A stretch of 64,000 nucleotides of DNA from assembly GCF_900112895.1 (NCBI RefSeq), contig NZ_FONL01000008.1, positions 1-64,000 on the forward strand, given 5' to 3'. The translations under genes were made by a program, and so were the position numbers. Within the stretch, counting starts at the first letter, position 1, and each line of letters starts with the position of its first letter. Below, piece by piece: positions 9,691-36,010 of the stretch. Under the pieces are notes generated by a model, which had not been told where the DNA came from, searched no databases, and saw only the letters and a program-made list of their open reading frames with translations. Origin of the DNA: Succiniclasticum ruminis DSM 9236. Lineage in GTDB: Bacteria; Bacillota; Negativicutes; Acidaminococcales; Acidaminococcaceae.

Positions 9691-11040
9691 ATGGCTTTTG
9701 AGAGCTTGTCCGAGCGGTTGCAGAACGCGATCAAGATGTTCCGCGGCACGAAAGAAATAACCGAAGAAGACCTGAAGGAACCGCTGCGCCAGGTACGCAT
9801 GGCGCTGTTGGAGGCTGACGTAAATTTCAAAGTCGCGAAAAATTTTGTCGCAAAAATCAAAGAGCGCGCCTTAGGCGCGGAAATTCAACAGAACCTGAGC
9901 CCCAGCCAGCAGATCATCAAAATCGTTGACGAAGAGCTGACTGCGCTTTTGGGTGGAACCCAGGCCAAACTGACGGTGGCGGATAAGCCTCCCACCATTA
10001 TCATGCTGGTTGGTCTGCAGGGCACCGGTAAAACCACTACGGTGGGTAAGCTGGCCTACAATCTGAAGAAGAAAAAGAAAAGCCCGTTGCTGGTGGCCGC
10101 TGACGTATATCGACCGGCTGCTATCACCCAGCTGCAGGTGCTGGGCGAACAGGTTGGGGTACCGGTGTTTTCCCTGGGGAACGAAATTTCACCGGTGGAA
10201 ATTGCCCGGCAGTCGCTGGACAAAGCGGCCCATTTGGCCTGCGATACGATTATTATCGATACCGCCGGCCGTCTGCACATCGATGAGAAGCTGATGGAAG
10301 AACTGCAGGATATCAAAGCGACGGTAAATCCCCATGAGATTCTGCTGACAGTGGATGCCATGACCGGCCAGGACGCCGTGACCGTGGCGGATACCTTTAA
10401 TAAAGACCTGGGCCTGACGGGCCTGGTGGTAACCAAGCTGGACGGCGACGCCCGGGGCGGCGCGGTGCTTTCCGTACGGGAAGTGACCGGTTGTCCGGTA
10501 AAATTCGTAGGTATGGGTGAAAAGCTGGACGCGCTGGAACCGTTTTATCCGGACCGTATGGCTTCCCGTATCCTGGGTATGGGCGATATCCTGTCCCTGA
10601 TCGATAAGATCAAAGATACCACCGACCTGGCCAAAGTGCTGGAGGCGGAAAAGAAGATCAAGAAAGACGAGTTTACCCTTGAGCAGTTCCTGGAGCAAAT
10701 GCAGCAGATCAAGAAGCTAGGTTCCCTGGATACTATCCTGGGTATGATTCCCGGCATGGGCGGCATCAGCCAGAAGCTGAAGGAAGCCAACGTGGATGAA
10801 AAAGAATTCGCCAGAGTAGAAGCGATTATCCGCTCCATGACACCGAAGGAACGGCAGAAACCGGAGATTATCAACGGCAGCCGCCGCAAGCGTATTGCTG
10901 CCGGCAGCGGCATGAAGGTTCAGGATGTGAACCGCCTGCTGAAGAACTTCGACGACAGCAAGAAGCTGATGAAGAAGATGCAGGGCATGGCCAAGTTTGC
11001 TTCAAAGGGTGGCAAAATGCTTCCCTTTATGCATAAATAG
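9691..11040 (+). CDS. ffh: signal recognition particle protein Ffh
   Basis: Ffh (449 residues) binds signal peptides of nascent chains together with 4.5S RNA. The N domain is followed by the G domain with GLQGTGKTTTVGKLA, DVYRPAAITQL, DTAGRLHID and TKLDGDARGG, and then the Met-rich M domain from about residue 300, with the RNA-binding stretch containing INGSRRKRIAAGSG. The length is normal. It follows ylxM and precedes rpsP in the classic order. Confidence 0.98.
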   Translation: MAFESLSERLQNAIKMFRGTKEITEEDLKEPLRQVRMALLEADVNFKVAKNFVAKIKERALGAEIQQNLSPSQQIIKIVDEELTALLGGTQAKLTVADKPPTIIMLVGLQGTGKTTTVGKLAYNLKKKKKSPLLVAADVYRPAAITQLQVLGEQVGVPVFSLGNEISPVEIARQSLDKAAHLACDTIIIDTAGRLHIDEKLMEELQDIKATVNPHEILLTVDAMTGQDAVTVADTFNKDLGLTGLVVTKLDGDARGGAVLSVREVTGCPVKFVGMGEKLDALEPFYPDRMASRILGMGDILSLIDKIKDTTDLAKVLEAEKKIKKDEFTLEQFLEQMQQIKKLGSLDTILGMIPGMGGISQKLKEANVDEKEFARVEAIIRSMTPKERQKPEIINGSRRKRIAAGSGMKVQDVNRLLKNFDDSKKLMKKMQGMAKFASKGGKMLPFMHK

Positions 11041-11057
11041 GCAAAAGGAGCTGTACG

Positions 11058-11089
11058 GTTCCGAAGCCTGAGGGAAGGCTGATAGGAAC
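11058..11089 (+). promoter_or_regulatory. nested hairpin in the rpsP leader
   Basis: GTTCC (11058-11062) pairs with GGAAC (11085-11089) around an inner AGCC/GGCT stem. It lies between ffh and rpsP. It may be a processing or regulatory structure; no function is known. Confidence 0.35.
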
Positions 11090-11154
11090 GGTCTTCCATT
11101 ATACCAGGTAATTAGTCAGAAGTATGAATCCCATGATAAGGAGGTGAAACTGAA

Positions 11155-11427
11155 ATGGCAGTAAAGATTCGTTTAAAACGTATGGGCGCTAAGAAAGTTC
11201 CGTTCTACCGTGTAGTTGTAGCTGACGCGCGTTCCCCGCGTGACGGCAAGTTCATCGAAAGCATCGGCTATTACGATCCCGTTGCGACTCCTGCAAATGT
11301 AAAGATTGACGAGGAAAAAGCTCTGGAATGGCTGGGCAATGGCGCACAGCCGACCGATACCGTGAAGAACCTGTTCAGCAAACAGGGCATCATGAAGAAA
11401 TTTGCGGAAGCTAAAAACGCGAAGTAA
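11155..11427 (+). CDS. rpsP: 30S ribosomal protein bS16
   Basis: bS16 (90 residues) is recognised by [26 protein letters not shown] and ESIGYYDP. It is a small-subunit assembly protein. A very strong ribosome site (AGGAGGTGA) precedes the ATG. It opens the ribosomal/tRNA-modification group rpsP-khpA-ylqD-rimM-trmD-rplS. Confidence 0.98.
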
Positions 11428-11446
11428 TTAAGGGGGCGTGATTTGC

Positions 11447-11677
11447 ATGAAGGAATTGGTAGAAGTTATGGCCAAATCTCTGGTTAGCAATCCGTCGGCA
11501 GTGACAGTGGAGGAGGAAACGACCGGTACAACAACTGTACTCCGCCTCCATGTTGCCCCTGATGATATGGGTAAGGTAATTGGCAAACAGGGCCGCATAG
11601 CGAAAGCGATCCGCTCCGTTATGAAGGCGGTTGCAACCCGTGAGAATGTGAAAGTTATCGTAGAGATCGTTGAGTAA
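11447..11677 (+). CDS. khpA: KH-domain RNA-binding protein KhpA
   Basis: This 76-residue protein is a single KH domain: the GxxG-type loop appears as MGKVIGKQGRIAKAIRSVM. KhpA works with KhpB as a global RNA chaperone affecting cell division and elongation in several Firmicutes. The start was placed at the ATG at 11447 (MKELVEVMAKSLV), correctly spaced from AGGGGG at 11431-11436; a GTG three codons earlier is less likely. Its place between rpsP and ylqD/rimM is conserved. Confidence 0.93.
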   Translation: MKELVEVMAKSLVSNPSAVTVEEETTGTTTVLRLHVAPDDMGKVIGKQGRIAKAIRSVMKAVATRENVKVIVEIVE

Positions 11678-21768: not shown

Positions 21769-22659
21769 ATGAAAACAGTTGAAGAATACCTGTCCCACTG
21801 CTATTCAATACCGGAAATTCCGCCGGCTCTCCCTTTGCCTGCGGAAACGTTTGTTGAAAGCTGGAAAGAGGCGGCAGGAAAAGAGGCGTTGGATTTTCTG
21901 GTGGAAATTTCCGGCAGTAGTAATAGGGTATTTCCTTTAAAAGATAAAGACGCACTTCGCATTTTTCTAAAAGAAACCCTGGGAGGTCCTCTTCCGGTTA
22001 TTGTCACAGGGAATCACGGGGATTTCCTGAGCGTGGAAGCGATGCTGAACGGCCGGGATGTTTTATCTGGTATACCGGTTACGGTAAACGCTTTTACTTT
22101 GCCGGCCCGGGCGGATAAAATCAGTGGCCATCGTGTGATTCTTCTGGGACGAGCACCTTACAGCAATGTTCCGTCCCAACAGCTTGGTCTGGAAGAAGAG
22201 TTGTGGCTGGAACGTTCTTTCCGACTGCGGCTTGCTCATGAATGCGTCCATTATGAAACGCTGCGGCTGTTTGGGGATATGCAGAATCACGCCCTTGACG
22301 AAATTGTTGCGGATGCGATAGGTCAGATTGTGGCATTTGGTAATTTTAGTGCGGAGCGGCAGAGGTTATTTTTCGGGCTCGGGAAGGGTACTGGCCGCTG
22401 CACCGGGAGGCTTTCCTTTTATTGCCGGGGTGTACTGCCATGGGAAAGGGAGAAAGTGTACCGGTCTGTGGATATGGTGCTTGATTTAATCGAAGCTGAA
22501 TTAACACGTTTCCTGGCCGGGAAAGCAGAACCTCCTGCAACAAAGGGCGCGTTATCTGATTTTAGCGATATTCTGTCACACAAAAAAGTAAAATATGAAC
22601 TGCTTGCCTTGCTTTCCGGAACAAGCATTGCGGAAAAGACCGGTAACAGGCGGAATTAA
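21769..22659 (+). CDS. hypothetical protein with zinc-metalloprotease-like HExxH motif
   Basis: A 296-residue soluble protein not assigned to a family. It contains HECVH at 157-161 within RLAHECVHYETLRLFG, followed by LDEIVADAIGQ, where Glu178 could be a third zinc ligand as in gluzincin-type peptidases. The N-terminal 120 residues are unlike any peptidase prodomain I know. The ATG follows AAGGTGAAGA. It has a strong terminator of its own just before the RiPP locus, so it is not clearly part of that operon, though a link is possible. Metalloprotease activity is inference from the motif only. Confidence 0.65.
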   Translation: MKTVEEYLSHCYSIPEIPPALPLPAETFVESWKEAAGKEALDFLVEISGSSNRVFPLKDKDALRIFLKETLGGPLPVIVTGNHGDFLSVEAMLNGRDVLSGIPVTVNAFTLPARADKISGHRVILLGRAPYSNVPSQQLGLEEELWLERSFRLRLAHECVHYETLRLFGDMQNHALDEIVADAIGQIVAFGNFSAERQRLFFGLGKGTGRCTGRLSFYCRGVLPWEREKVYRSVDMVLDLIEAELTRFLAGKAEPPATKGALSDFSDILSHKKVKYELLALLSGTSIAEKTGNRRN

Positions 22660-22766: not shown

Positions 22767-24377
22767 ATGAGAACCAGTACATATGAAATAATCTTGCCGC
22801 TGATTGGCAGGGATGACAAGGAAATCGAAGGCAAAACGCTGCTTATAAACGGTTTATACGGCGCCATAGATGTGGTGGACACGGAGATTGCGGCAAAGAT
22901 CCGCGAAGAAGATTTTGCGGCAATTCCTTTTGTCATGCGGGAACGGCTGGCCCAGCGCGGTCATATCACCCGGAAAGATGAGGCGGGGGAACTGGCCGAC
23001 GCACGGCTGCTCGGTCGCATTTGGAACAAACTGATTGGTCACAGCGGCAGAGGACCGGTAATCCTGCCCACTTACGATTGCAACTTCCGCTGCCCATACT
23101 GCTTTGAACGGCACCGCCTGACAAGGGGACAGGAGTGGCTGGGTCATGAAATGAAGCCCGAAATGGTGGAGGCGGTCTTCACCGCACTCCAGAAACAGCG
23201 AGACCAGGGCTACAAAGTGGGAGACTGCACCCTTTACGGCGGCGAACCGCTGCTGAAGGAGAATATGGCTACGGTACGGAACATCTGCGAGCATGCGAAA
23301 GCCATGGGACTGTCACTGAGCGCCATTACCAACGGCTACGATCTGGATGCTTTCATCGGCCTGCTGGAAGAGTTCGGGTTTGAGAGGCTGCAGATTACGG
23401 TGGACGGCGTGGGCAGGCTGAATGACCGGCGCCGCCTTCACCGGGACGGCGTGCCTACTTATGACCGAATTCTGCAAAACGTGGCACTGGCTCTTGAGCA
23501 CGGCGTGGACATCAGCCTGCGGGTGAACGTGAACGGGGATAACATCGGCGGTATCAAAGCACTGATCGACGACCTGGCGGCCCGTGGGCTGCATGAAACC
23601 AGCCGGGAAGAAAGAGCGAAGGTCGGGAGAGAACGGCAGGAAGCAGTCAAAGCCGGAAAACCCGTTCCCAAACGAAAGGGACTGTTCTCCTATTATTTTA
23701 AGGCGGTATCGGAAGATAAAAACTCGCCGACGAAGGTTACGGAGAAGCAGGTGCTGGATGCCATTTTAGCGGCGGGTTTTCCCCCTGTTGATGCCATGGA
23801 GAGGCAAAGTCAGTATTCCATGCCCCTGCAGGGTTTGATTGCCGCTATGAAGAAAGAAGATTACCCAAGCTTTTCCCCGGCGTACTGTGGCGCGGAACAG
23901 GGGATGATCGGTGTCGGCCCTGACGGGCTGATTTATCCATGCTGGGATCTGGTGGCTATGGAAGAGCAGGCCGTGGGCTTTACGGACGTAAAGACGGGCC
24001 GCTTCTTCTTCAACTTTGGCAAGGCGAAATGGCGTACCCGTACTGCTGACCTTATGAAACCGTGTCAGACATGTCCTTATATCTTTATTTGCCGGGGCGG
24101 CTGCGCACCGGAAGCAAAACGGGAACACGGCAGCTATTTCAGTGAACACTGCGGCGAGGTAAAGGAAATCTTCGCCTATGTGGCGCCCCGGATTATTGGC
24201 AAGAAGTGGGAGGAAACGGGCGAGGACGAGCTTTCTGTTTCGCTGGCGGGTCCGCTTTCCCGGTTCACCGGGGCGGAGCGGGAAACGCTTATGACCACCA
24301 CCAGCCAGAAGGTTATGTTCGATCTCATCAATGACGCAGGCATTCTTCCTGCAGCGACTGACAGAGATAATAATTAA
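22767..24377 (+). CDS. radical SAM/SPASM peptide maturase
   Basis: A 536-residue radical SAM enzyme. An N-terminal region of about 95 residues, probably involved in leader binding, is followed by the CX3CX2C cluster motif in TYDCNFRCPYC (Cys105, 109, 112), then LYGGEP and ITVDG. A Cys-rich SPASM domain carrying auxiliary clusters follows: YCGAEQGMIGVGPDGLIYPC, KPCQTCPYIFICRGGC and EHCGE. Enzymes of this type working on Nif11-like or Cys-rich precursors usually form thioether bonds from cysteine to another residue. With the four-Cys precursor 106 bases downstream, thioether formation is the most likely role, but that is inference. The ATG follows AGGGGG. Confidence 0.88.
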   Translation: MRTSTYEIILPLIGRDDKEIEGKTLLINGLYGAIDVVDTEIAAKIREEDFAAIPFVMRERLAQRGHITRKDEAGELADARLLGRIWNKLIGHSGRGPVILPTYDCNFRCPYCFERHRLTRGQEWLGHEMKPEMVEAVFTALQKQRDQGYKVGDCTLYGGEPLLKENMATVRNICEHAKAMGLSLSAITNGYDLDAFIGLLEEFGFERLQITVDGVGRLNDRRRLHRDGVPTYDRILQNVALALEHGVDISLRVNVNGDNIGGIKALIDDLAARGLHETSREERAKVGRERQEAVKAGKPVPKRKGLFSYYFKAVSEDKNSPTKVTEKQVLDAILAAGFPPVDAMERQSQYSMPLQGLIAAMKKEDYPSFSPAYCGAEQGMIGVGPDGLIYPCWDLVAMEEQAVGFTDVKTGRFFFNFGKAKWRTRTADLMKPCQTCPYIFICRGGCAPEAKREHGSYFSEHCGEVKEIFAYVAPRIIGKKWEETGEDELSVSLAGPLSRFTGAERETLMTTTSQKVMFDLINDAGILPAATDRDNN

Positions 24378-24483: not shown

Positions 24484-24738
24484 ATGCCGATTAACGGAAA
24501 AGAAATCACAAAAGAAATGATCATGGCAGCCATGAAGTGCAAGAGCGCCGACGAACTGATTGCTCTGGCCAAAACCGGTGGCATTGAACTGACAAAGGAA
24601 GAAGCCGAAGCCTACATGGCGGAACTGGCAGACTTTGAACTGGATGAAAACGAGCTGAAACAAGTGGCCGGCGGCATCAAAACCTGCTACATGGTTGATG
24701 GCTGCTCTTTCAAATGCGGTACTCTGAAAGACTGCTGA
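24484..24738 (+). CDS. RiPP precursor, Nif11-like leader with four-Cys core
   Basis: An 84-residue precursor. Residues 1-64 are an acidic, helical Nif11-type leader (KEMIMAAMKCKSADELIALA; FELDENELKQVAGG) ending in a double glycine at 63-64, the cut site for C39 peptidases. The predicted 20-residue core (65-84) has Cys at 68, 74, 78 and 84: a CX5CX3CX5C pattern ending on a cysteine. One more Cys (19) is in the leader. A very strong ribosome site (AGGAGGGG) and its own promoter and terminator suggest high expression relative to the enzymes. The likely product is a thioether-bridged and otherwise modified peptide; activity is unknown. Confidence 0.9.
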   Translation: MPINGKEITKEMIMAAMKCKSADELIALAKTGGIELTKEEAEAYMAELADFELDENELKQVAGGIKTCYMVDGCSFKCGTLKDC

Positions 24739-24805: not shown

Positions 24806-26743
24806 ATGGGAATAAACCGGGAAGGCGCTGTGGATGTGCTTTTTGTTGCCATGCCTTTCTGCGACGAATATATGCCCTGCCTGACCCTGGCCCTGTTCAA
24901 GTCGGTGCTGTCACGGGCAGGGATTAAGAGCCGTGTGCAACATGAGTATCTCTATTATGCCAGTCGCATCGGGTTGGAGAAATACAGAAGCATCATGCAG
25001 GTATGCACCATCGGTTACGGTCATGATTATTTTGCCTGCGAGACGGTTTTTGCGGAAGCAGCCCATGGTAAAACCATTTCTTCTTTTGACGACTACATCC
25101 GCTGGATGAAGGGAAAACATCTTCCGGGGAAGGTCTTTGCCGTCAGGCAGCGGGAGGAAACCCTGCACAGTCTGGCCCTGTTCCAGGAAGCTCACGCTAT
25201 GGCAGAAGCCTGCCTGGAAGAAGCCTGCGCCCGTATAATGGCGCAGCGACCGAAGATTGTGGCATTTCTTTCCATGTTCCAACAGCACAACGCCATGATT
25301 GCCCTGGCTCGCCGGCTGAAAAAGGAAAAAGACGCCCCCCTGATATTAGCGGGCGGCGCCAACTGCGAAGGAGACGCGGGAGCGGCCCTGGCGGAACATA
25401 TCGAAGCCTTTGATTACGTTTTTACCGGCGAGGCGGACGAAATCATCGCGCCATTATGCACACGGCTGTTACAGGACGGCACTGTGCCGGATAGTGAGCT
25501 GCCTCACGGCGTGGTATCCCGCACCAGACAGAAGTGTGCTCCGGCGAGGGTCACGCAAAACCTGGACGCATTGCCGCTGCCAGATTTCAGCGACTACTTC
25601 CGGGAGAGGGACATGCTGCTGCCCCGGATGAAAGGGCATTTTATCGTTACGGCAGAAGGCTCCCGGGGCTGCTGGTGGGCTGCCCGGCATCCCTGCCGCT
25701 TCTGCGGGCTGAACGGCAGTACCGCCCATTTGTACCGGACAAAAAGTACGGACAGGTTTGCGGATGAACTGGCGGAACTGGCCAGCCGTTATCCCGGAGC
25801 CCAGTGTTATTTTACCGACAATATCCTGAGCTTAACTCATCAGAAAGAACTGCCTTCCGCGCTATTGCAACGGGAAGCGTACCGAAATAACGGGCTCAGA
25901 CTGTTTACGGAAATCAAGTCCAACATGACGGAAGAAGACGCAAAACATCTGGCGGAAGCCGGTTTCTTCTGGGTGCAGGCGGGTATCGAAAGCTTTTCCG
26001 ATGGCATCCTGCGCCTGATGGGCAAGGGGGCTACCGCCATCCGGCAGGTGCAGACCCTGAAACACTGCAACGCCCACGGGATAAACGTGCTGTGGTATAT
26101 TTTGACCGGTACGCCGGGAGAAACGGAAGAACTCTGCCGTGAAGTCAACGCTGTCCTGCCGAAGATCATGCACCTGTCCGCCCCTAATACCGTGACCCAC
26201 GTCATGTTCCACCGTTACAATGATTATATGCGGCATCCGGACGATTCCGTCCCGGCCCTGCGGCCGGACCGGGGCTACGATTTTGTATTTCCCAATGAGG
26301 ACTTTATCCGCCGTGCGGCCCACCTGTTCGCACCGGTGGATGAGGCAGAACTGGCCCGGTATTATGATTACCGGCAGTTGGGACCTGCCTATGAAACCCT
26401 GTACGAACTGTCCGAAGCATGGAACAGGACGCGCCAGCTTCTTTATATGAAGGACAAAGGAGCATTGGTAAAAATTCTGGATACCCGTTTGATAGCGCGC
26501 CGGCCCATGTATTATCTGCAGGGCATCGAAGTGGAGGTACTGCGGGCATGCCGGAACGTGATGAAGGAAGAAAAACTGATGAAAGCGCTGGCGGATCATT
26601 ATGAAGAAGCAAGAATCCGGGAAGCACTTTCATGGTTGGAACAGGAAAACCTTTTACTCCACATCGGGCCGGAATATCTCGCTTTGCCCATTGACAGGGA
26701 CGCGGGAAAGCAGAAGCGGTTAATAGTTGGAAGAGGAGTATAA
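24806..26743 (+). CDS. RiPP maturation radical SAM protein 1 type (B12-binding-like)
   Basis: A 645-residue enzyme. The N-terminal part (about 1-260) resembles a cobalamin-binding domain. The radical SAM domain has the unusual motif GSRGCWWAARHPCRFCGLN with Cys289, Cys297 and Cys300 (CX7CX2C), which is the hallmark of the RiPP maturation radical SAM protein 1 family. Family members are annotated as C-methyltransferases, but few have been tested. The C-terminal 150 residues look like a winged-helix-type region. The gene lies 62 bases after the precursor, behind its terminator. Which core residue it alters cannot be read from sequence. Confidence 0.88.
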   Translation: MGINREGAVDVLFVAMPFCDEYMPCLTLALFKSVLSRAGIKSRVQHEYLYYASRIGLEKYRSIMQVCTIGYGHDYFACETVFAEAAHGKTISSFDDYIRWMKGKHLPGKVFAVRQREETLHSLALFQEAHAMAEACLEEACARIMAQRPKIVAFLSMFQQHNAMIALARRLKKEKDAPLILAGGANCEGDAGAALAEHIEAFDYVFTGEADEIIAPLCTRLLQDGTVPDSELPHGVVSRTRQKCAPARVTQNLDALPLPDFSDYFRERDMLLPRMKGHFIVTAEGSRGCWWAARHPCRFCGLNGSTAHLYRTKSTDRFADELAELASRYPGAQCYFTDNILSLTHQKELPSALLQREAYRNNGLRLFTEIKSNMTEEDAKHLAEAGFFWVQAGIESFSDGILRLMGKGATAIRQVQTLKHCNAHGINVLWYILTGTPGETEELCREVNAVLPKIMHLSAPNTVTHVMFHRYNDYMRHPDDSVPALRPDRGYDFVFPNEDFIRRAAHLFAPVDEAELARYYDYRQLGPAYETLYELSEAWNRTRQLLYMKDKGALVKILDTRLIARRPMYYLQGIEVEVLRACRNVMKEEKLMKALADHYEEARIREALSWLEQENLLLHIGPEYLALPIDRDAGKQKRLIVGRGV

Positions 26744-27036: not shown

Positions 27037-28206
27037 ATGAAAAAGTATTTTATGATAGGGCTGGGTATTGTGCTCGCTCTGTCGCTGACCATAATATTGT
27101 ACGGCGCGTGGCTTAATGAACGGGGCGAGTTTCAAATCGCCAAACGTATGAGCGAACGCAGCATGGAACTGCAGGGCTCCCAGGCTTCCGTGCGTTTTAT
27201 CCGCCCCAGAGTTACGCTGAACGCCATCAATTTTTATTCCAAAGACATGGCGGATGCCGTGGCGTTGTCGGATGGGCGCATCATTTCCTGTCTTGCGCCG
27301 AAGGGCAGTTTTGTCCGTAAAGGCGACACCTTGTTTGTGATTGAAAATGAAGAATTGCCGCTGCAGATCCAGCAGGCAGAGGCAAACATTCTCAGTGCGC
27401 AGGCAGAAAAACACGGCAAGGAAAACCAGTATAAGCGGTTTTTGCTGCTGAAACAGAAGGACGCCATCTCTGCCCAGCAATTTGACGATGCGGAAGCGGC
27501 ATACCGGGCTGCGGTGGCGGCCCTTGATGTGGCGGAGGCCAAGCTGGGAAGCCTGCGTATCCAGGAAGCCCGGCAGCGTGTCACCGCTCCATTGGATGGT
27601 CAGGTGCTGCGGTTGTACCGGCAGCCGGGTGCCTATGTGCAGAGCGGAACATCTCTGGCTCTGGTTGGCGATTTCCGCACGCTCTATTTTGCTACGCCGG
27701 TTGACGATAAGATAGCAGGGCACCTGGTACAGGGGCTGGAAGCTGAACTGATTTTCAGCAACAGGGATTTCCAGAAAGCCTATGGCACGAATTATGAGAA
27801 AGGAAACATGGGCAGCGAACAATGCTTTCTTGCGTCTGTTGCGGAAATTACGCCGCCTGTGTCGGAACCGGCTGCCCTGCGCAATGTGATGTGGCAGGCG
27901 GATAACCGCTCCGGTCTGCTGGAACCACAGACCTACGGGCACGTGACCATGCAGGTCCGTACAGGCCGTGAAGCGCTGTCCGTTCCTCTGGACGCTATGG
28001 TAGACAGCAACCACACCCGGGTGTACGTGGCGAAAGAAGATAATACCATTGAAGAAAGAACGGTAAAGACAGGCACTAACGACGGTCAGTTCATCGAAGT
28101 CCTGGAAGGCCTTAAGGAGGGCGAAGTGGTAGTCACTTCAGGCATGGAGGGCCTGAAGGACGGGATGCGGGCGACCGTGAAAGTACAGGGAGGTGGAACG
28201 AAGTGA
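27037..28206 (+). CDS. periplasmic adaptor (HlyD/RND-type membrane fusion protein)
   Basis: A 389-residue membrane fusion protein. An N-terminal signal anchor (5-23) is followed by two lipoyl-type half-motifs (about 74-103 and 181-212) around an alpha-helical hairpin (105-178), a beta-barrel, and a membrane-proximal domain with TSGMEGLKDGM. Such adaptors link an inner-membrane exporter to an outer-membrane channel, in keeping with a diderm cell. It overlaps the next adaptor gene by four bases. No TolC-like gene is in the locus, so a shared channel may be used. Confidence 0.85.
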   Translation: MKKYFMIGLGIVLALSLTIILYGAWLNERGEFQIAKRMSERSMELQGSQASVRFIRPRVTLNAINFYSKDMADAVALSDGRIISCLAPKGSFVRKGDTLFVIENEELPLQIQQAEANILSAQAEKHGKENQYKRFLLLKQKDAISAQQFDDAEAAYRAAVAALDVAEAKLGSLRIQEARQRVTAPLDGQVLRLYRQPGAYVQSGTSLALVGDFRTLYFATPVDDKIAGHLVQGLEAELIFSNRDFQKAYGTNYEKGNMGSEQCFLASVAEITPPVSEPAALRNVMWQADNRSGLLEPQTYGHVTMQVRTGREALSVPLDAMVDSNHTRVYVAKEDNTIEERTVKTGTNDGQFIEVLEGLKEGEVVVTSGMEGLKDGMRATVKVQGGGTK

Positions 28207-29159
28207 GCAACGATAATATCTTCAATCCCAAGGCCCTGGAAAAGCTCCGTTCCCCTGACAAACTGGACAGTATGATCCGGATCACCGGCCCTGTGGGCTG
28301 GATGGGACTGGCAGCGGTGTCCCTGCTTTGTTTTGCCATTGTGCTGTGGTCTATATACGGCTCCTTTACGGAAAAAGCGGAAGGTTACGGGCTGATTGTT
28401 GACTCCGCTGGCGTGGTGAACATTACCCATGCGGCCTCGGGTAAGGTGACAGATGTGTATGTGAAGACCGGCAGCCGCGTGCGGAAGGGCGACTTGGTCG
28501 CCCGCATGGAACAGCCGGAGCAGTCAGCGGATACCCGTATGGCCCAGTACGGAACCGAGCTGGGGACCAGTGACCGGGATGTCCAGAGCCGCGTGTACGA
28601 ATACGATGCAAAACGGTACCAGCAGGCTGCCCGGGAAAATATTTACTCCGATTACGAAGGTATCGTGGGGGAAGTGATGGCTGCGGAAGGACAGCTCATG
28701 GAAGCCGGCAGTCCCATCTGCACGGTGCGTCTGACCCAGGACAGGAATGAGCTGCAGGGTGTCTTCTATATCAGCGTGGACAATGGTAAACGGGTGGAAC
28801 CGGGCATGACCATCCAGCTGGCTCCCAATGGGGTGGATATTACCAAGACCGGCAGCCTGATCGGTGTGGTGAAAAGCGTTTCCCAATATCCTGTTTCCGC
28901 TGAAGGAGTGAAAAAAAGTCTGGGCAACTCCCAACTGGCCCAATACATATTGCAAAAGGACGGCGGCGCGGCGGTGGAAGTGAGGTTTGAACTGGTGAAG
29001 GACGCAGATTCCGAGTCCGGTTATCTGTGGACCTCCGTCGTAGGACGCCATAAACCGGTGACGGCGGGCAGTTATTGCACCGGTTCTGTTGTTATTGAAC
29101 GGCAGCCGCCCATCGAGAAAGTGTTCTATAAGATCAGCCAGTGGCTGAGAAGCCGGTGA
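28203..29159 (+). CDS. NHLM-type bacteriocin secretion protein (HlyD family)
   Basis: A 318-residue HlyD-like protein starting at a GTG inside GTGA, overlapping the preceding stop codon, so it is translationally coupled. It has one membrane helix (about 31-52), a lipoyl-type segment (HAASGKVTDVYVKTGSRVRKGD) and only a short helical part before the barrel region. These features fit the NHLM/NHLP microcin-system adaptor family that works with the two ABC proteins downstream. Two different adaptors in one locus are notable. Confidence 0.85.
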   Translation: MSNDNIFNPKALEKLRSPDKLDSMIRITGPVGWMGLAAVSLLCFAIVLWSIYGSFTEKAEGYGLIVDSAGVVNITHAASGKVTDVYVKTGSRVRKGDLVARMEQPEQSADTRMAQYGTELGTSDRDVQSRVYEYDAKRYQQAARENIYSDYEGIVGEVMAAEGQLMEAGSPICTVRLTQDRNELQGVFYISVDNGKRVEPGMTIQLAPNGVDITKTGSLIGVVKSVSQYPVSAEGVKKSLGNSQLAQYILQKDGGAAVEVRFELVKDADSESGYLWTSVVGRHKPVTAGSYCTGSVVIERQPPIEKVFYKISQWLRSR

Positions 29160-29163
29160 GGAT

Positions 29164-31383
29164 ATGGATACAAGAGAACGGATCCGGCAGTTCTTTGCCG
29201 GAAAAGAGCGCGTGAAGGTGCCGACCGTCCTGCAGATGGAAGCAACGGAATGCGGCGCCGCGTCTCTGGCTATGGTGCTGGCCTATTACGGGCGCTGGCT
29301 GCCGCTGGAGTTTTTGCGGCAGGAGTGCGGTGTGACCCGGGACGGCAGCAATGCGGATAATCTGCTGAAAGCTGCCCGCCGTCAGGGTTGTGTGGCCAAG
29401 GCCTTTGCGGGCCGTAGCGAAGTGCTGCGCAAAAAGGAATTCCCCCTGATCCTGTTCTGGGAATTCAATCATTTTCTGGTTCTGGAAGGTTTTCAGGGGG
29501 ACACCGTGTTCCTGAATGACCCGGCCATGGGGCGGCGCACCGTAACATGGGATGAATTTCTGACTTCCTATACTGGCGTGTACATGAAGATTACGCCGGG
29601 TGAAAGTTTCAAACCCGAAGGGGAACCTTACAGCATCGTGAAAACGGTGGCGGCCAAACTCAGGGAGGATAAGTGGGCGCTTATCTTTCTGATGGTGCTG
29701 GGTCTTTGCATGATCATTCCGGGGCTTGCGATTCCGGTCATGGGGCAGATTTTCATTGACGATGTTTTCTCCCTTAAGCATGCGGACTGGATTGTAAAGC
29801 TGTTAAATGCCATGTTCGGGACCATGATTCTGCTGGGCATCATGACTGCCATGCGGGCTGCGGCGCTGACATACTGGCAGAAAAAACTGACTATTGCGGA
29901 TTCATCCGGCTTTTTCTGGCATGTTCTGCGGCTGCCGGTGACATTTTTCCAGCAACGGTACGCGGCAGACATTGCTTCCCGTATCCAGTTCAATGAATCC
30001 ACGGCAGCGGTGCTGTCCAACCAGGCGGCTACAGCGTTGCTGGATTTGCTGGTGGCGCTGTTTTACCTGTTGTTGTTGTTCCAGTACAGCGTGCCCCTGA
30101 CTCTGATTGGCGTATCCATCAGTATCGTGGATATTTTTGTGTTTTTATATATGCGGCGCCGCCAGACCGACCTGATTATGCGCATCCAGCAGGATGCTTC
30201 CAAGGCCTATGGCGTGCTGATGAGCGGCCTTATGATGGTGGAGAGCATCAAGGCCAACGGCAGCGAAGGGGATCTGTTTGCCAAGTGGGCAGGCTATGCG
30301 GCTAAAGCCACGGTGGCTGCCCAGGAAATGAAACTATGGGCCATGAAAGTAAAATTGCTGCCGTTGCTTCTTGGTGGACTGAATACGGCCCTGATTATGA
30401 CGGTGGGCGGATTTTCCATCATGGAAGGAATCATGACTGCCGGTATTTATATGGCTTTCAATAACCTGATTGTAAAATTCCATGAGCCGGTACAGAAGCT
30501 GCTTTCCCTGGGCAATGTGTTGCAGGACACGGAAATGCAGATGCGGCGTCTTGACGATGTGCGGCGTTATAAAACAGACAGTCTGAACTATCCCGGCGAT
30601 GATCAGGTGATATCGTTTAAAGGCAACCGTCTTTCCGGCGAACTGACACTGAAAGACGTAAACTTTGGCTACAGCCCCCTTGACCCGCCCCTCATCGAGC
30701 ACTTTGATCTCCATCTGGAACCGGGGCGCTGGGCTGCTGTGGTGGGATCTTCCGGCAGCGGCAAGAGCACGCTGGCTAAACTGGTGGCGGGGCTTTACGA
30801 GGAATGGTCCGGAGAGGTGCTGTTTGACGGTGTGAAGCGCCGGGAAATCCCGCGGCCCGTCATTGTGAATTCCCTGGCATCCGTGGATCAGGATGTGTTC
30901 CAGATTACCGGGACAGTACGGGAAAATATTACCATGTTTGATAAATCCGTTCCTTCGGCGGACGTCGTACAGGCTGCCCAGGACGCCTGTATCCATGAGG
31001 ATATTATGAGGCTGCCGGGAGGTTATGAGGCAGAAGTGGCGGAAGGCGGCCTGAATTTCAGCGGCGGTCAGCGGCAGCGTCTGGAAATTGCCCGGGCGCT
31101 GGCCTGCAACCCATCCCTGCTGATTCTTGACGAAGCCACCAGCGCCATCGATCCCATGACGGAACAGAAATGTCTGGAAAACATCCGGCGCAGGGGCTGC
31201 ACCTGCCTGATTGTGGCCCACCGTCTTTCCACCATCCGGGATGCGGATGAGATCATCGTACTGGAACGGGGGAAAGTAGCGGAACGGGGCACTCATCGGG
31301 AACTGATAGCCCATGACGGACCTTACCGCCGTCTCATCGAAGAACGGGACCGGATGGAAGCGGATGAAGAAACGCTGAATTAG
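29164..31383 (+). CDS. NHLP-type ABC exporter with C39 leader peptidase
   Basis: A 739-residue fused peptidase-permease-ATPase. The N-terminal C39 domain has QMEATECGAASLAMVL with the catalytic Cys30, then NHFLVLEG with His103 and NDPAMG with Asp119. A six-helix permease follows, then the ATPase with Walker A GSSGSGKST near residue 530, signature FSGGQRQR and Walker B LLILDEATSAID. It should cut the precursor after its Gly-Gly and export the core across the inner membrane. The start is four bases after the adaptor stop. Confidence 0.94.
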   Translation: MDTRERIRQFFAGKERVKVPTVLQMEATECGAASLAMVLAYYGRWLPLEFLRQECGVTRDGSNADNLLKAARRQGCVAKAFAGRSEVLRKKEFPLILFWEFNHFLVLEGFQGDTVFLNDPAMGRRTVTWDEFLTSYTGVYMKITPGESFKPEGEPYSIVKTVAAKLREDKWALIFLMVLGLCMIIPGLAIPVMGQIFIDDVFSLKHADWIVKLLNAMFGTMILLGIMTAMRAAALTYWQKKLTIADSSGFFWHVLRLPVTFFQQRYAADIASRIQFNESTAAVLSNQAATALLDLLVALFYLLLLFQYSVPLTLIGVSISIVDIFVFLYMRRRQTDLIMRIQQDASKAYGVLMSGLMMVESIKANGSEGDLFAKWAGYAAKATVAAQEMKLWAMKVKLLPLLLGGLNTALIMTVGGFSIMEGIMTAGIYMAFNNLIVKFHEPVQKLLSLGNVLQDTEMQMRRLDDVRRYKTDSLNYPGDDQVISFKGNRLSGELTLKDVNFGYSPLDPPLIEHFDLHLEPGRWAAVVGSSGSGKSTLAKLVAGLYEEWSGEVLFDGVKRREIPRPVIVNSLASVDQDVFQITGTVRENITMFDKSVPSADVVQAAQDACIHEDIMRLPGGYEAEVAEGGLNFSGGQRQRLEIARALACNPSLLILDEATSAIDPMTEQKCLENIRRRGCTCLIVAHRLSTIRDADEIIVLERGKVAERGTHRELIAHDGPYRRLIEERDRMEADEETLN

Positions 31384-31422: not shown

Positions 31423-34143
31423 ATGAAACTCATTGCGGGTGAGCGTTTCCGACTGCATGATGACAATACATATATAAAACTGGTCTCCGGCAAATTGGAG
31501 GCTTATGCCGTTACGCGCAAAAAACAGTCTTTCCGGCAGATATTTCTGACAGAAGTTGCCCCGGGACAGGCTGCTTTCCCTTCTATGGACGAATTCGAAC
31601 AGATCGATGTGCTGGTTTATGCGGTGGAAGACAGCGAACTGACAGAAACATCCCTGCTGGAAATTGCTCCGGAAGAACTGCTGCCATTGATGAGGCAATG
31701 GTTTGCTGCGTTGGTTTCGCTGCCTTGGCTGCGGCTTTTGGCAGACAAGGGCGACGAAGTGCTGCGGAAATGGGCGGATGGCTCTGTTCTGACCGGCCAT
31801 GAGCAGGACAGAGAGAACCTGTTGGCGGATTTTGCGGACAACGAAGGCATTTTCGCCATGTTGTTGGGCGTGCGTTTCAACGCCCAGGACAAGCGTCTTT
31901 CACGGCAGATGGAAAAACGGGCAAAGCAGAAAACACGCCTGGTGGACGATACGATTTCCAAACTGCTTGGTGAAGCAGTTGCTCCGGAAGAAGAAACGGG
32001 CACTGGCAATACTGAGCTTGAAGATGCCGTATTTATTGTGCGTTGCGTTGCCCAGGCGCTGAAGATGCCACACGGCGGGATTCAGATGGCTCCGGAGATG
32101 GTGCGGAAACTGGACCGGCTTGGTTTGTTGCGCCGTCTGATGGAAAAAGGCGGTATGCAGATGCGTCTGGTGCATCTGGAACAGGACTGGTATTCCGGGG
32201 ACAGCGGAGTCCTGTTGGGTTGCTTTGGTGAAAAGAAAGAACTGGCTGCCTTTGTGCCGGAAACACCGGTTCGGTACCGTATGGTGACCCGGGAGCATTC
32301 GGAAGGAATTGTAGTAACAGCAGAAATTGCCAAAGAGGTAGACGCGGATGCATTCCTTTGTTATCCGGGGCTGCCGGATCGTAAACTTTCCATATATGAG
32401 TTCTTGCGTTTTCTGGTGCGGCAGTGCTGGAAACAGGACTGGCGTACGATTCTGGCCGTAAGCCTGGCTGCGGGACTGATTCCGCTGATTACACCGATTG
32501 TAACGGAAACGATCTTCAAAGACATTATTCCTATATTAGACCGGAAAGGACTGGCCACGGTGACCCAGGTTGTCATGGTAGCAGGCTTTACTACAGCGGC
32601 TCTTAACACGGTGCGTTCCGTAGCGCTGCTGCGTCTTTCCACCGCTGCCGACATGAACGTGAAACCGGCTGTTATCAGCCGCGTATTAAGCCTTCCCGTG
32701 AAGTTTTTCCGTACCCTGCAGACCGGTGAACTGGCCAGCCGTATTCTGGGACTGGAACAGGTGATACAATTGATTTCCGAAGAAATCGTCGGCGTTATCT
32801 TCAGCTTTCTTTTTTCTTTCTGGAGTCTGGCGCTGATGTGTTATTACAGCGTGAAGCTGACGGGTATCGCTGTGCTTATCTGGTTTATTTATCTCCTTGC
32901 TGTCTGGCTGATTATGAGTCGTCTTGTACAGGCCCAGCGGAAAATGACCACTGCCAGGAACCGCACCCAGGGTATTTTGCAGGAAATTTTTACCGGCCTG
33001 GTGAAGTTCCGTGTCAGGGGCGCGGAAGAGCAGGCCTATCATCTTTGGGGCGAGCGGTTCTCGGAAGAGTGGAAATGGAATTATCGTTCACGCTGGCTGA
33101 AAAACTATAATACGGTGATTACGGCGGTACAGCCCGTGTTGCTTTCCCTCATCCTGTATTATTTTGCGTTTCGGGAACTGGGCGAGACCATGACCCTGGG
33201 CACGGGAAATGTGATCAGTAGTGCTCTGGGAGCAGGCGAAGCCATGACGGCAGCTACCTTTATTGCGTTCCAGTCTGCTTACACCGCCTTTAATGCATCC
33301 CTGAACGCGGTGATACCGGCGGCCGAGTCTGTCTCTATGGTGAAACCGTTGCTGGAAAACATCCGGCCCATTCTGGACGCAGAACCGGAAAGTTCTGATG
33401 AGAGGCCTGACGCCGAAGTGCTTTCCGGAGCTATCGAAGTCAGGGATCTCCGTTTTGCTTATGATGCTGATTTACCGGAAGTATTAAAGGGGGTCAGCTT
33501 TCGGATCGCAGCGGGGGAACATGTGGCTATTGTTGGCAGATCCGGTTGCGGGAAGTCTACCCTGGTCCGTCTGCTGTTGGGCTTTGAAAAGCCTTTGGGC
33601 GGCGCGGTGTATTATGACGGGCAGAACCTGGCGGAGATAAACGCCGCTTCCGTCCGTGCCCAGCTGGGCGTGGTGCTGCAGAACGGTCAGCTGATGACAG
33701 GCGACATTTACCGGAACATTATCGGCATCAACGACCTTACCCTTGATGACGCCTGGGCTGCGGCGGAAGCGGCAGGCATTGCGGATGACATCCGGGAAAT
33801 GCCCATGCAGATGCAGACCGTTGTCAGCGAAGGCAGTACGAATATTTCCGGCGGTCAGCGGCAGCGTATCCTCATGGCCAGAGCTCTGGCCATGAAGCCG
33901 TCCATCATTATCTGCGACGAAGCGACCAGCGCGCTGGATAACCGGACTCAGGCCATTGTGACAAAGAGTCTTGACCAGCTTAAGGCTACCCGGATTGTGG
34001 TGGCTCACCGCCTTTCCACAATCCGGAACGCAGACCGTATCATTGTGCTGGATGAAGGACGCGTGGCCGAAAGCGGCACCTTTGAGGAACTGGTGAAGCG
34101 GGGAGGCCTTTTTGCCGCCATGGTGAAGCGGCAAATGGCTTGA
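31423..34143 (+). CDS. NHLP-type ABC exporter, second subunit
   Basis: A 906-residue ABC protein with a soluble N-terminal part of about 320 residues lacking the C39 catalytic residues, a permease (about 330-620) and an ATPase with Walker A GRSGCGKST near 704, signature ISGGQRQR and Walker B IIICDEATSALD. This matches the second NHLM exporter family, which is always found with the C39-bearing partner; the two are thought to form a heterodimer. The start follows AAGGAGG. The N-terminal part may bind the leader or a regulator. Confidence 0.9.
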   Translation: MKLIAGERFRLHDDNTYIKLVSGKLEAYAVTRKKQSFRQIFLTEVAPGQAAFPSMDEFEQIDVLVYAVEDSELTETSLLEIAPEELLPLMRQWFAALVSLPWLRLLADKGDEVLRKWADGSVLTGHEQDRENLLADFADNEGIFAMLLGVRFNAQDKRLSRQMEKRAKQKTRLVDDTISKLLGEAVAPEEETGTGNTELEDAVFIVRCVAQALKMPHGGIQMAPEMVRKLDRLGLLRRLMEKGGMQMRLVHLEQDWYSGDSGVLLGCFGEKKELAAFVPETPVRYRMVTREHSEGIVVTAEIAKEVDADAFLCYPGLPDRKLSIYEFLRFLVRQCWKQDWRTILAVSLAAGLIPLITPIVTETIFKDIIPILDRKGLATVTQVVMVAGFTTAALNTVRSVALLRLSTAADMNVKPAVISRVLSLPVKFFRTLQTGELASRILGLEQVIQLISEEIVGVIFSFLFSFWSLALMCYYSVKLTGIAVLIWFIYLLAVWLIMSRLVQAQRKMTTARNRTQGILQEIFTGLVKFRVRGAEEQAYHLWGERFSEEWKWNYRSRWLKNYNTVITAVQPVLLSLILYYFAFRELGETMTLGTGNVISSALGAGEAMTAATFIAFQSAYTAFNASLNAVIPAAESVSMVKPLLENIRPILDAEPESSDERPDAEVLSGAIEVRDLRFAYDADLPEVLKGVSFRIAAGEHVAIVGRSGCGKSTLVRLLLGFEKPLGGAVYYDGQNLAEINAASVRAQLGVVLQNGQLMTGDIYRNIIGINDLTLDDAWAAAEAAGIADDIREMPMQMQTVVSEGSTNISGGQRQRILMARALAMKPSIIICDEATSALDNRTQAIVTKSLDQLKATRIVVAHRLSTIRNADRIIVLDEGRVAESGTFEELVKRGGLFAAMVKRQMA

Positions 34144-34168
34144 CCGATTGGAAAAACAGGAGGAAAGC

Positions 34169-36010
34169 ATGATTGTTCAGGAATTGCCTATGCGGGAGTA
34201 TTATGCTCACCTGCGCCGTCATCCCATACCGGAAATTATGGACGATGCCTGTCTGGCGGCTGTTGCTAACGTGGAAGCGCAGTATGGCAACACGATTACC
34301 CACGGGGCCGGACTGGAAGTGCGGTTGGGGGAGCAGGCCCGTTATGTGGATTACATCATGAACATCGATGTGGAACATATTCCCTTCGTATCCTCCCTCT
34401 GGTATGAAATTGATTATGCAGAGTTTGCCAAAGGCGGACCCATTGAGCCCTGCCTGTTCACCAACCTGGCCCTTGCGGAACACAGCTATTCCGAACTATG
34501 GGACAAAATGCTGCCACCGTTTATGGGGGAACGGAGGGCCCGCCGGTTACGGGCTCCCCTGAACCGGGTGACAGCAGCCCTGCCAAAAGGCGCTTCTATT
34601 AAACAGATTGGCACCATGTCCGGCCGGGGCGAACTTGATATCATGCGCCTGGTTATTATCTTTTCCGTATGGGAATCCGTCTTTGACGGACTGAAGGCTA
34701 TCGGCTGGCAGGGAAGTACAGAAGCCCTGAGGGAAGCACTGGAACCCTGGAAAGAAACAAAAAACGTAGCTGTCAATATCGATCTTGGGGAAGCGGGAGT
34801 GCTGCCCAAGATTGGCATAGAGGTATGCTCCAACTGGCGCCATCCGCTGTTGATGGATAAATTCATAGCGCGTCTGGAGGAAGCCGGGCTGTGCCTTCCT
34901 TCCAAAGGGGAAGCACTGCGGCGCTGGATACGGATCCGGCCCGATGGGGCCCCCTTCATCCAGACCCTGATTGCCTATTTTAAGCTGAATTATAAAGATG
35001 GGCGCATCACGGAGGCAAAGGCCTACCTGGAACAGTCTCCCTACATCCACCATCATTATTTTGACGCATACGACCGGCCTCTGCGCCTGGATATGGAACT
35101 TGCGGGCGGACAGAAGATTCTTCCTGTGGGAAAAGCGCTGGCCCTGATCCGGGAATGCGGACAGAATAGGGTGCGCCATGTACGGCTTACAGGAGGCGTT
35201 GCCGGATATAAAGATATGCCCATTTTGCTGCAGGAGAGCAAAAAACAGGGCGTGGCAACAGAAATCGTAATCAGGGGGCACGTGCAGGAATCCTGGCTTG
35301 CTGCCACGGGTGCCGCGGGAGCGGACGCTTTCCTTGTGGATATGGAAGGTGCTGCGGACGTGGCAGCGCGGACCACGCTGCAATTGTTGCAGAAACTGCG
35401 ATTCAGTAACGTGCGGGCACGCTGGTATATGCATCGGGACAACACAGAAGAGCTGAAGGCAGTTGTTGAAACAGCAGCCGGGCTGGGAGTACAGGAACTT
35501 CTCATTACCGGGGCGAAACCGCAGGACGGAAACAAAATGAAAGCGCAACTTCCGGATTGGGCACAGATGGAAGCGGCAGCTGCGTTTATCAGGGAATACG
35601 AAGGGAGTAATGGGGTAGAGGACATACTGTTGCAGGATAAGAAGATGCATCTCACGGTGGAATCCTGTTTCTCACAGTTTCGGGCCTTTATGGGCGGCAC
35701 AGATGCCAGGTATAATGACAATCAGGGTATCGGGCGCGGCTGTGAGGCTGGCCGGTCTTTCTTTGCAGTGGCAGCGGACGGGAGTTTTACACCCTGCCTG
35801 TACATGGAGAAGAATGCCGAAACGCCGTCGACCGGTTACTGTAATACAGAAAACATCGTTGACTTTTGGGAAAAATCTTCTGTTCTCGGGACATTGCGCT
35901 GTTCCGGAGAAGGAATCAGTGAATGCGCAAATTGTTGTTTCCAACGCCGTTGCCTGCATTGCCAGGCCTTGGGGAAGGATATCTCGTGCCCGGTGTACCA
36001 TGCACTGTGA
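34169..36010 (+). CDS. SPASM-ended protein with cluster-less radical-SAM-like fold
   Basis: A 613-residue protein of unclear function. Residues 1-295 form a domain that I do not recognise (with YFKLNYKDGRITEAKAYL at its end). Residues from about 304 follow a radical SAM pattern: PLRLDMEL, then ALALIRECGQNRVRHVRLTGG, but the CX3CX2C segment is absent; only one Cys (330) lies between 300 and 345, and GGEP is replaced by GGVAG. The C-terminal SPASM-like part keeps many Cys (525, 543, 558, 578, 586, 589, 590, 595, 598, 607). The ATG at 34169 follows AGGAGG; a TTG seven codons earlier is rejected. It may be a scaffold or leader-binding partner of the active enzymes. Confidence 0.7.
   Translation: MIVQELPMREYYAHLRRHPIPEIMDDACLAAVANVEAQYGNTITHGAGLEVRLGEQARYVDYIMNIDVEHIPFVSSLWYEIDYAEFAKGGPIEPCLFTNLALAEHSYSELWDKMLPPFMGERRARRLRAPLNRVTAALPKGASIKQIGTMSGRGELDIMRLVIIFSVWESVFDGLKAIGWQGSTEALREALEPWKETKNVAVNIDLGEAGVLPKIGIEVCSNWRHPLLMDKFIARLEEAGLCLPSKGEALRRWIRIRPDGAPFIQTLIAYFKLNYKDGRITEAKAYLEQSPYIHHHYFDAYDRPLRLDMELAGGQKILPVGKALALIRECGQNRVRHVRLTGGVAGYKDMPILLQESKKQGVATEIVIRGHVQESWLAATGAAGADAFLVDMEGAADVAARTTLQLLQKLRFSNVRARWYMHRDNTEELKAVVETAAGLGVQELLITGAKPQDGNKMKAQLPDWAQMEAAAAFIREYEGSNGVEDILLQDKKMHLTVESCFSQFRAFMGGTDARYNDNQGIGRGCEAGRSFFAVAADGSFTPCLYMEKNAETPSTGYCNTENIVDFWEKSSVLGTLRCSGEGISECANCCFQRRCLHCQALGKDISCPVYHAL

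Follow-up and report, generated by a model that had tools for sequence, protein, structure and literature searches.

Our analysis of a 64,000-nucleotide stretch of the Succiniclasticum ruminis DSM 9236 genome (positions 1 to 64,000 of contig NZ_FONL01000008.1, hereafter the window) revealed a 613-aa protein that is, on balance, probably a two-part RiPP maturation factor, in which a precursor-engaging domain of predicted ABBA fold is carried on a dead radical-SAM/SPASM chassis and works with a separate, intact radical SAM/SPASM maturase, referred to here as rSAM_B. The protein is encoded on the + strand at 34169..36010 by an ATG-initiated, stop-free frame, with a GGAGGA-type ribosome-binding site (aggaggaa, 34158..34165, +) ahead of the ATG at 34169. 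The window holds an NHLM/Nif11 RiPP cluster, as indicated by matches above cut-off to TIGR03794, TIGR03796 and TIGR03797, and the order of its genes, all on the + strand, is as follows: a DUF7005 protein (21769..22659), rSAM_B (22767..24377; CX3CX2C at C105-C109-C112), a Nif11-type precursor with the core IKTCYMVDGCSFKCGTLKDC (24484..24738), which scored 29.8 bits against TIGR03798, slightly below the cut-off of 32.3, a B12-type RiPP radical SAM C-methyltransferase (24806..26743; TIGR03975), two HlyD-type adaptors, namely an HlyD/RND-type adaptor (27037..28206) and an NHLM HlyD-type secretion protein (28203..29159; TIGR03794), and two NHLM ABC exporters, namely a C39 peptidase/ABC exporter (29164..31383; TIGR03796) and NHLM ABC exporter 2 (31423..34143; TIGR03797), the last of which stops 25 bp upstream of the gene under study. 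That gene is the final recognisable one of the locus, which is where the first-pass annotation of this DNA had placed it. The neighbouring SpoIIE, Hsp90, M20 peptidase, enoyl-CoA hydratase and TolC-like genes, orphan neighbours, were examined and judged unrelated. The DUF7005 protein was met repeatedly in RiPP loci of this kind, and its HExxH-like HECVH sequence is a possible zinc metallopeptidase motif.

Comparison with intact homologs (L039, L040, L045, L090 and L091), which share the same N-terminal domain and carry TKCPLxCPQCYCDL and GGET, showed what the C-terminal half has lost. No CX3CX2C was found near the barrel start of the 613-aa protein, either in the sequence or in the alignment, and a piece of ~14 residues, (T)TKCPLHCPQCYCDL, is absent following residue 312 (35102..35107, +; alignment columns 386-400), so that the deletion proposed in the first-pass annotation is borne out. 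A second loop, past strand 4, is likewise shorter, the intact forms carrying STEEINRKSRDGY there. The replacement of the GGET/GGEP motif by GGVAG, also part of that earlier description, was seen at residues 342-346 (35192..35206, +); GGE is retained in several other motif-less copies (L006-L009), which makes this change a recent and local one. Residues 299-493 (35063..35647, +) correspond, by alignment and predicted model, to a pseudo-radical-SAM (beta/alpha)6 barrel, and residues 494-613 (35648..36007, +) to a SPASM region, which is the sole library match of the protein above a curated cut-off (Pfam SPASM, 22.3 bits against a gathering score of 21.5). The SPASM-like region described earlier is therefore real, although it was credited with ten cysteines and eleven are present from residue 500 onward. 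Eight of these are family-wide (500, 525, 543, 586, 589, 595, 598 and 607), six being found in 29/29 motif-less copies and the remaining two in 28/29 and 26/29.

The full-protein AlphaFold2 model, built from the family alignment, had a mean pLDDT of 91 and showed six beta/alpha units at residues 306-479, followed by the SPASM region. Its best matches among solved structures were PqqE (E 2.9e-10, TM 0.69 by target), SuiB, SkfB and anSME. The absence of a radical SAM barrel was thus ruled out by the predicted (beta/alpha)6 barrel and its matches to SPASM enzymes in the PDB, and the C-terminal half is radical-SAM-like, as had been proposed. With the SAM-binding cluster loop gone, reductive cleavage of SAM would be impossible, and we take this half to be an anciently inactivated radical SAM/SPASM enzyme that has kept its predicted barrel and its SPASM site.

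Wider homolog searches indicated that this loss is not confined to the window. CX3CX2C is absent from the 613-aa protein and from 28 further full-length homologs. The wider set of motif-less sequences comprises ~30 distinct full-length proteins and comes from Acidaminococcaceae (uncultured Succiniclasticum among them), Selenomonadaceae (with S. ruminantium HD4), Lachnospiraceae and Spirochaetia; the sources, where named, were mostly the ruminant digestive tract. In the genus of the window, the motif is absent in 11/11 copies, and a second copy type, 57% identical, is present in the window genome and in two others of its genus. A maximum-likelihood tree with 38 rows placed the 29 motif-less rows, together with two nested rows consisting of the N-terminal domain only, on one branch with 100/100 support, and the intact and standalone forms outside it. 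Values of dN/dS (Nei-Gojobori) were below 1 in the tested pairs from the window genus, with ranges of 0.05-0.20 (N-terminal domain), 0.24-0.38 (barrel) and 0.18-0.60 (SPASM region). The single shared branch and these ratios argue that the loss is old and that the protein is under selection, which is strongest in the N-terminal domain. A damaged single copy was ruled out, as at least 29 copies, divergent yet conserved and drawn from two phyla, share the loss, with intact relatives elsewhere in the tree. Relatives with a normal CX3CX2C, which had been put forward as a sign that this copy is only damaged, do exist (the five intact homologs above), but they lie on separate branches.

Decay of a pseudoenzyme with no present role is consistent with the lost catalytic loop and with the few losses or breaks of the C-terminal half seen in the family (L099 and L066). 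Against it stand a single ancient loss followed by conservation in two phyla, open reading frames, dN/dS below 1 and co-occurrence with a partner; as a general account it is already refuted, and we regard it as very improbable. At L099 (9775-10806), the copy consists of the N-terminal domain only and lies near rSAM_B, its 3' end running into another Nif11 precursor, and tblastn found no C-terminal half in that locus. Separately, an intact-type homolog from a gut Lachnospiraceae (L092, 1579-3304) has a frame break between the N-terminal domain and the barrel, at the cluster motif, which could be an assembly error.

At 30/40 motif-less loci, rSAM_B, an exporter, an HlyD protein or a precursor was present in the stretch; weighing against a role in RiPP maturation, some copies (L050, L051, L055 and L074) are far from recognised RiPP genes. 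The link to rSAM_B was quantified in 301 sampled Negativicutes genomes by comparing an N-terminal domain search with an rSAM_B search (E<=1e-60). rSAM_B was present in 19/20 genomes with a protein of the motif-less clade, a set that includes one genome with the N-terminal domain only (G275), compared to 1/281 others (Fisher p 7e-28, which is illustrative, as the genomes are related and not phylogenetically independent). In the one exception (G056), a fragment of rSAM_B lies immediately upstream, where the contig ends (L085); in the one genome with rSAM_B only (G277), that gene also sits at a contig end. A genome that has the intact form alone, with weaker matches of the rSAM_B kind (G279), was not separated out in this table; when it is counted in, the second figure becomes 2/281. 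The motif-less gene and rSAM_B abut, with a gap of -25 to +18, in eight loci (L059, L070-L072, L080-L082 and L085); in the window they share a strand at a distance of ~10 kb, and in other genomes they are unlinked within the same genome, which suggests that they may work in trans. One option raised in the first-pass annotation, that of a catalytically dead partner, is thereby strongly supported: the protein and one intact maturase co-occur almost perfectly, and their genes frequently abut.

This partnership also bears on why the C-terminal half was retained. The SPASM clusters of the pseudo-radical-SAM half might supply rSAM_B with electrons or modulate it, making the protein an auxiliary iron-sulfur subunit. 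Consistent with this are the eight near-invariant SPASM cysteines, kept despite loss of the catalytic cluster, the obligate-looking partnership and the analogy of Dph1-Dph2 (PMC11048331). The cysteines could serve fold stability, however, rSAM_B has SPASM-type cysteines of its own, and L099 is a natural case of the N-terminal domain occurring near rSAM_B without the C-terminal half; we consider this role rather unlikely.

The N-terminal domain (residues 1-298; 34169..35062, +) had been described as an unknown domain of 295 residues. It is indeed without a family in the libraries searched, but it is 298 residues long, and its model, predicted with high confidence, shows the ABBA fold (ten-stranded PT-barrel) of aromatic prenyltransferases. 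An ABBA-like strand pattern had been proposed from the alignment ahead of the structure model, and the AlphaFold2 model of the domain alone (pLDDT 92) has ten strands as five hairpins with helices between. Foldseek searches of this model against the PDB gave 27 matches at E<=0.001 (best E 1.5e-5), all of them ABBA aromatic prenyltransferases, the top ones being among Trp prenyltransferases; TM by query reached 0.59 (CymD) among the 50 matches listed, and TM was no more than ~0.4-0.6, with rmsd of 5.8-13 A. At the level of sequence, the domain matched no Pfam or NCBIfam family and no member matched an ABBA-kind prenyltransferase family, hhalign against NphB alone gave a probability of 0.3% and therefore no profile similarity, and a profile search of the PDB returned no match (best E 0.51). 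Because of the lack of profile similarity to NphB and of a Pfam or NCBIfam match, the ABBA assignment is one of fold only, and the domain family appears to be undescribed in the libraries searched. 

Residues E50, D61, W78, E80, D82, G148, M150, R153, R160, D205, K214, C242, K246, K272, K284 and Y286 are near-invariant in the domain. In every one of its forms, approximately 20 residues do not vary; they lie on the ten strands with i, i+2 spacing, which suggests, from residue alternation and not from coordinates, that they line the barrel. By the same alternation, the candidate lumen residues for binding prenyl diphosphate and Mg2+ include conserved D61, R160, K214, K272, K284 and Y286, but E50, E80, D82 and D205 would be placed there too. 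The barrel has several invariant acidic residues and is without a clear full diphosphate-binding set, which weighs against the ABBA reading.

When sought on its own, as the first-pass annotation had advised, the N-terminal domain was found standalone, fused to intact radical SAM proteins and fused to a 2OG oxygenase. Standalone forms adjoin a separate intact radical SAM protein, with NHLM exporters in the locus, in Firmicutes (L097 and L098); another, from Nostoc (L146), has precursors of the Nif11 and NHLP types nearby as well as a protein with CX3CX2C, and one from Acaryochloris (L149) has a Nif11 precursor and a RiPP C-methyltransferase in its vicinity. Overall, the domain occurs mostly by Nif11/NHLP RiPP genes, in cyanobacteria, Azospirillum, Firmicutes and Spirochaetes. 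The fusion to 2OG-FeII_Oxy_3 is in a LanM/Nif11 cluster on a Pseudanabaena plasmid (L147, 7989-9779), where the next gene (9769-11565) encodes 598 aa without a known family. In four genomes (L138, 1198-2499; L139, 1204-2499; L140, 1198-2499; L141, 1201-2496), the domain is followed by a C-terminal tail that looks like an NHLP leader, with the ending ..PPxLKPSWLTSK. Library support for this tail came to a single weak match, to nitrile hydratase alpha (E 0.026), seen for just one of the four, and these proteins are possibly enzyme-precursor fusions.

The predicted ABBA fold makes two further options of the first-pass annotation, a leader-binding scaffold and a distinct enzyme, concrete. As a scaffold, the ABBA domain would be without transferase activity, having lost it or never had it, and would act as an RRE-like module that binds Nif11/NHLP leaders, the whole protein delivering precursors to rSAM_B. 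This would suit a domain joined or adjacent to an intact radical SAM protein, a pseudo-radical-SAM half, a 2OG oxygenase or an NHLP-like tail, mostly with Nif11/NHLP precursors, and it would suit a genome with 23 Nif11 candidates, in which unlinked genes for the dead protein and rSAM_B would need to act in trans. However, a module that did nothing but bind would not need ~20 invariant, probably lumen-facing charged residues conserved from cyanobacteria to Firmicutes, and we hold this reading to be unlikely, if not strongly so.

The alternative, that the ABBA domain is an active Tyr/Trp prenyltransferase which depends on a leader and that this is the main activity of the protein, would leave the pseudo-radical-SAM half as a positioning chassis and give a prenylated, radical-crosslinked peptide as the product. 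Besides the fold, with its top matches among Trp prenyltransferases, each of the ten strands has a conserved residue, several of them basic, in addition to D61 and Y286, and MppC offers a precedent (PMC12715784). The precursors provide further evidence. In loci of the intact fusion or split form, 18/20 precursors have a C-terminal Trp (of the two that do not, one is probably no precursor), compared to 2/33 in other loci. In the loci of the motif-less family the short cores are rich in Cys, and the first core Cys is flanked by Tyr or Trp in 17/30 (shuffle mean 5.7, with 0/2000 shuffles above 13), counts that are indicative, as the cores share ancestry and the shuffle test overstates their independence. 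Set against these points, no sequence relation to known prenyltransferases was detectable, the basic residue set is incomplete and the C-terminal Trp could equally be a target of the radical SAM enzyme, so that we regard this reading as possible but doubtful. That the ABBA domain still transfers prenyl groups is, likewise, a real but minority possibility. A corresponding history, in which a fusion of ABBA prenyltransferase and radical SAM enzyme lost its radical half and the kept prenyltransferase now modifies Tyr/Trp on Cys-rich Nif11 peptides with a separate radical maturase, is offered tentatively.

The Nif11 precursors of L090, L091, L094, L095, L096 and L098 end in ..RRW, ..GRW, ..GKW or ..LSW. 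The core in the window has one Tyr and no Trp, which weighs against the preferred reading. In the window genome, TIGR03798 identified 23 Nif11 candidates, five of them above the curated cut-off, scattered over contigs C33, C35, C37, C24, C6 and others; many have C-Y/W cores, and they would form a dispersed substrate pool.

Under the preferred reading, that of a two-part maturation factor, the ABBA domain would engage Nif11/NHLP-type precursors and hold their leader, as suggested by genomic context and by MppC, whose need for the whole Nif11 leader is a precedent for leader engagement by an ABBA domain. The pseudo-radical-SAM/SPASM half may dock to rSAM_B or pass electrons to it, by way of a putative physical partnership and loaded clusters. 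The Cys-rich core would receive its radical modification from rSAM_B, and the ABBA domain may itself prenylate an aromatic residue beside the core cysteines.

Pseudo-radical-SAM proteins recur in RiPP clusters, and the motif-less family offers a clean test case, with a single ancient loss, intact relatives, a near-obligate partner and a fused domain whose possible activity, prenylation, can be read out in an assay, as well as a cultivable host in Selenomonas ruminantium HD4 (L064). Our searches of the literature on rumen RiPP/Nif11 and 'pseudo-rSAM' found nothing direct. The analysis also brings to light an ABBA-fold domain family tied to Nif11/NHLP RiPPs and the C-terminal-Trp signature in the precursors of the intact relatives. 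If the prenyltransferase reading were true, the domain would represent a new family of peptide prenyltransferases that depend on a leader, one that has also been joined to a 2OG oxygenase and to a precursor-like tail. Its products, peptides both prenylated and radical-crosslinked, would then make up a new class that is common in the rumen.

Among known systems, PqqE, SuiB, SkfB and anSME share the predicted barrel and SPASM fold and the SPASM cysteines with the 613-aa family, but they keep CX3CX2C and cleave SAM, whereas this family is without the loop. The ABBA aromatic prenyltransferases DMATS, CymD, NphB and AmbP1 have the same predicted ten-stranded PT-barrel as the N-terminal domain, which differs in its conserved residues and in its fusion to radical SAM parts, and no sequence-level link was found. 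MppC is an ABBA prenyltransferase that binds and needs the whole Nif11 leader and geranylates Trp (PMC12715784); it belongs to a Nif11-leader RiPP cluster, and cyanobacterial relatives of the N-terminal domain are in similar Nif11 clusters, one with LanM. However, MppC is a separate single enzyme of a lanthipeptide cluster and is likened to our domain by description, not by sequence. The Dph1-Dph2 heterodimer, in which each radical SAM subunit has an atypical cluster (PMC11048331), resembles the proposed pair in its paired radical SAM subunits, although the chemistry is unrelated and the likeness is an analogy only. Closest in kind are the pseudo-rSAM proteins (IPR026418) of Bacteroidales RiPP clusters, which are hypothesised partners and for which PMC10352776 gives no experimentally assigned function, and the TIGR04347 pseudo-SAM/SPASM proteins; as in our family, these are radical-SAM-like proteins alongside an active radical SAM enzyme and a precursor. 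The 613-aa protein did not match the NCBIfam pseudo-SAM models at E<=0.1, and its family differs further in having an N-terminal ABBA domain and in its Nif11/NHLM setting. Taken together, the ABBA fusion, the retention of SPASM and the tight rSAM_B partner distinguish this family from the known Bacteroidales pseudo-rSAM proteins.
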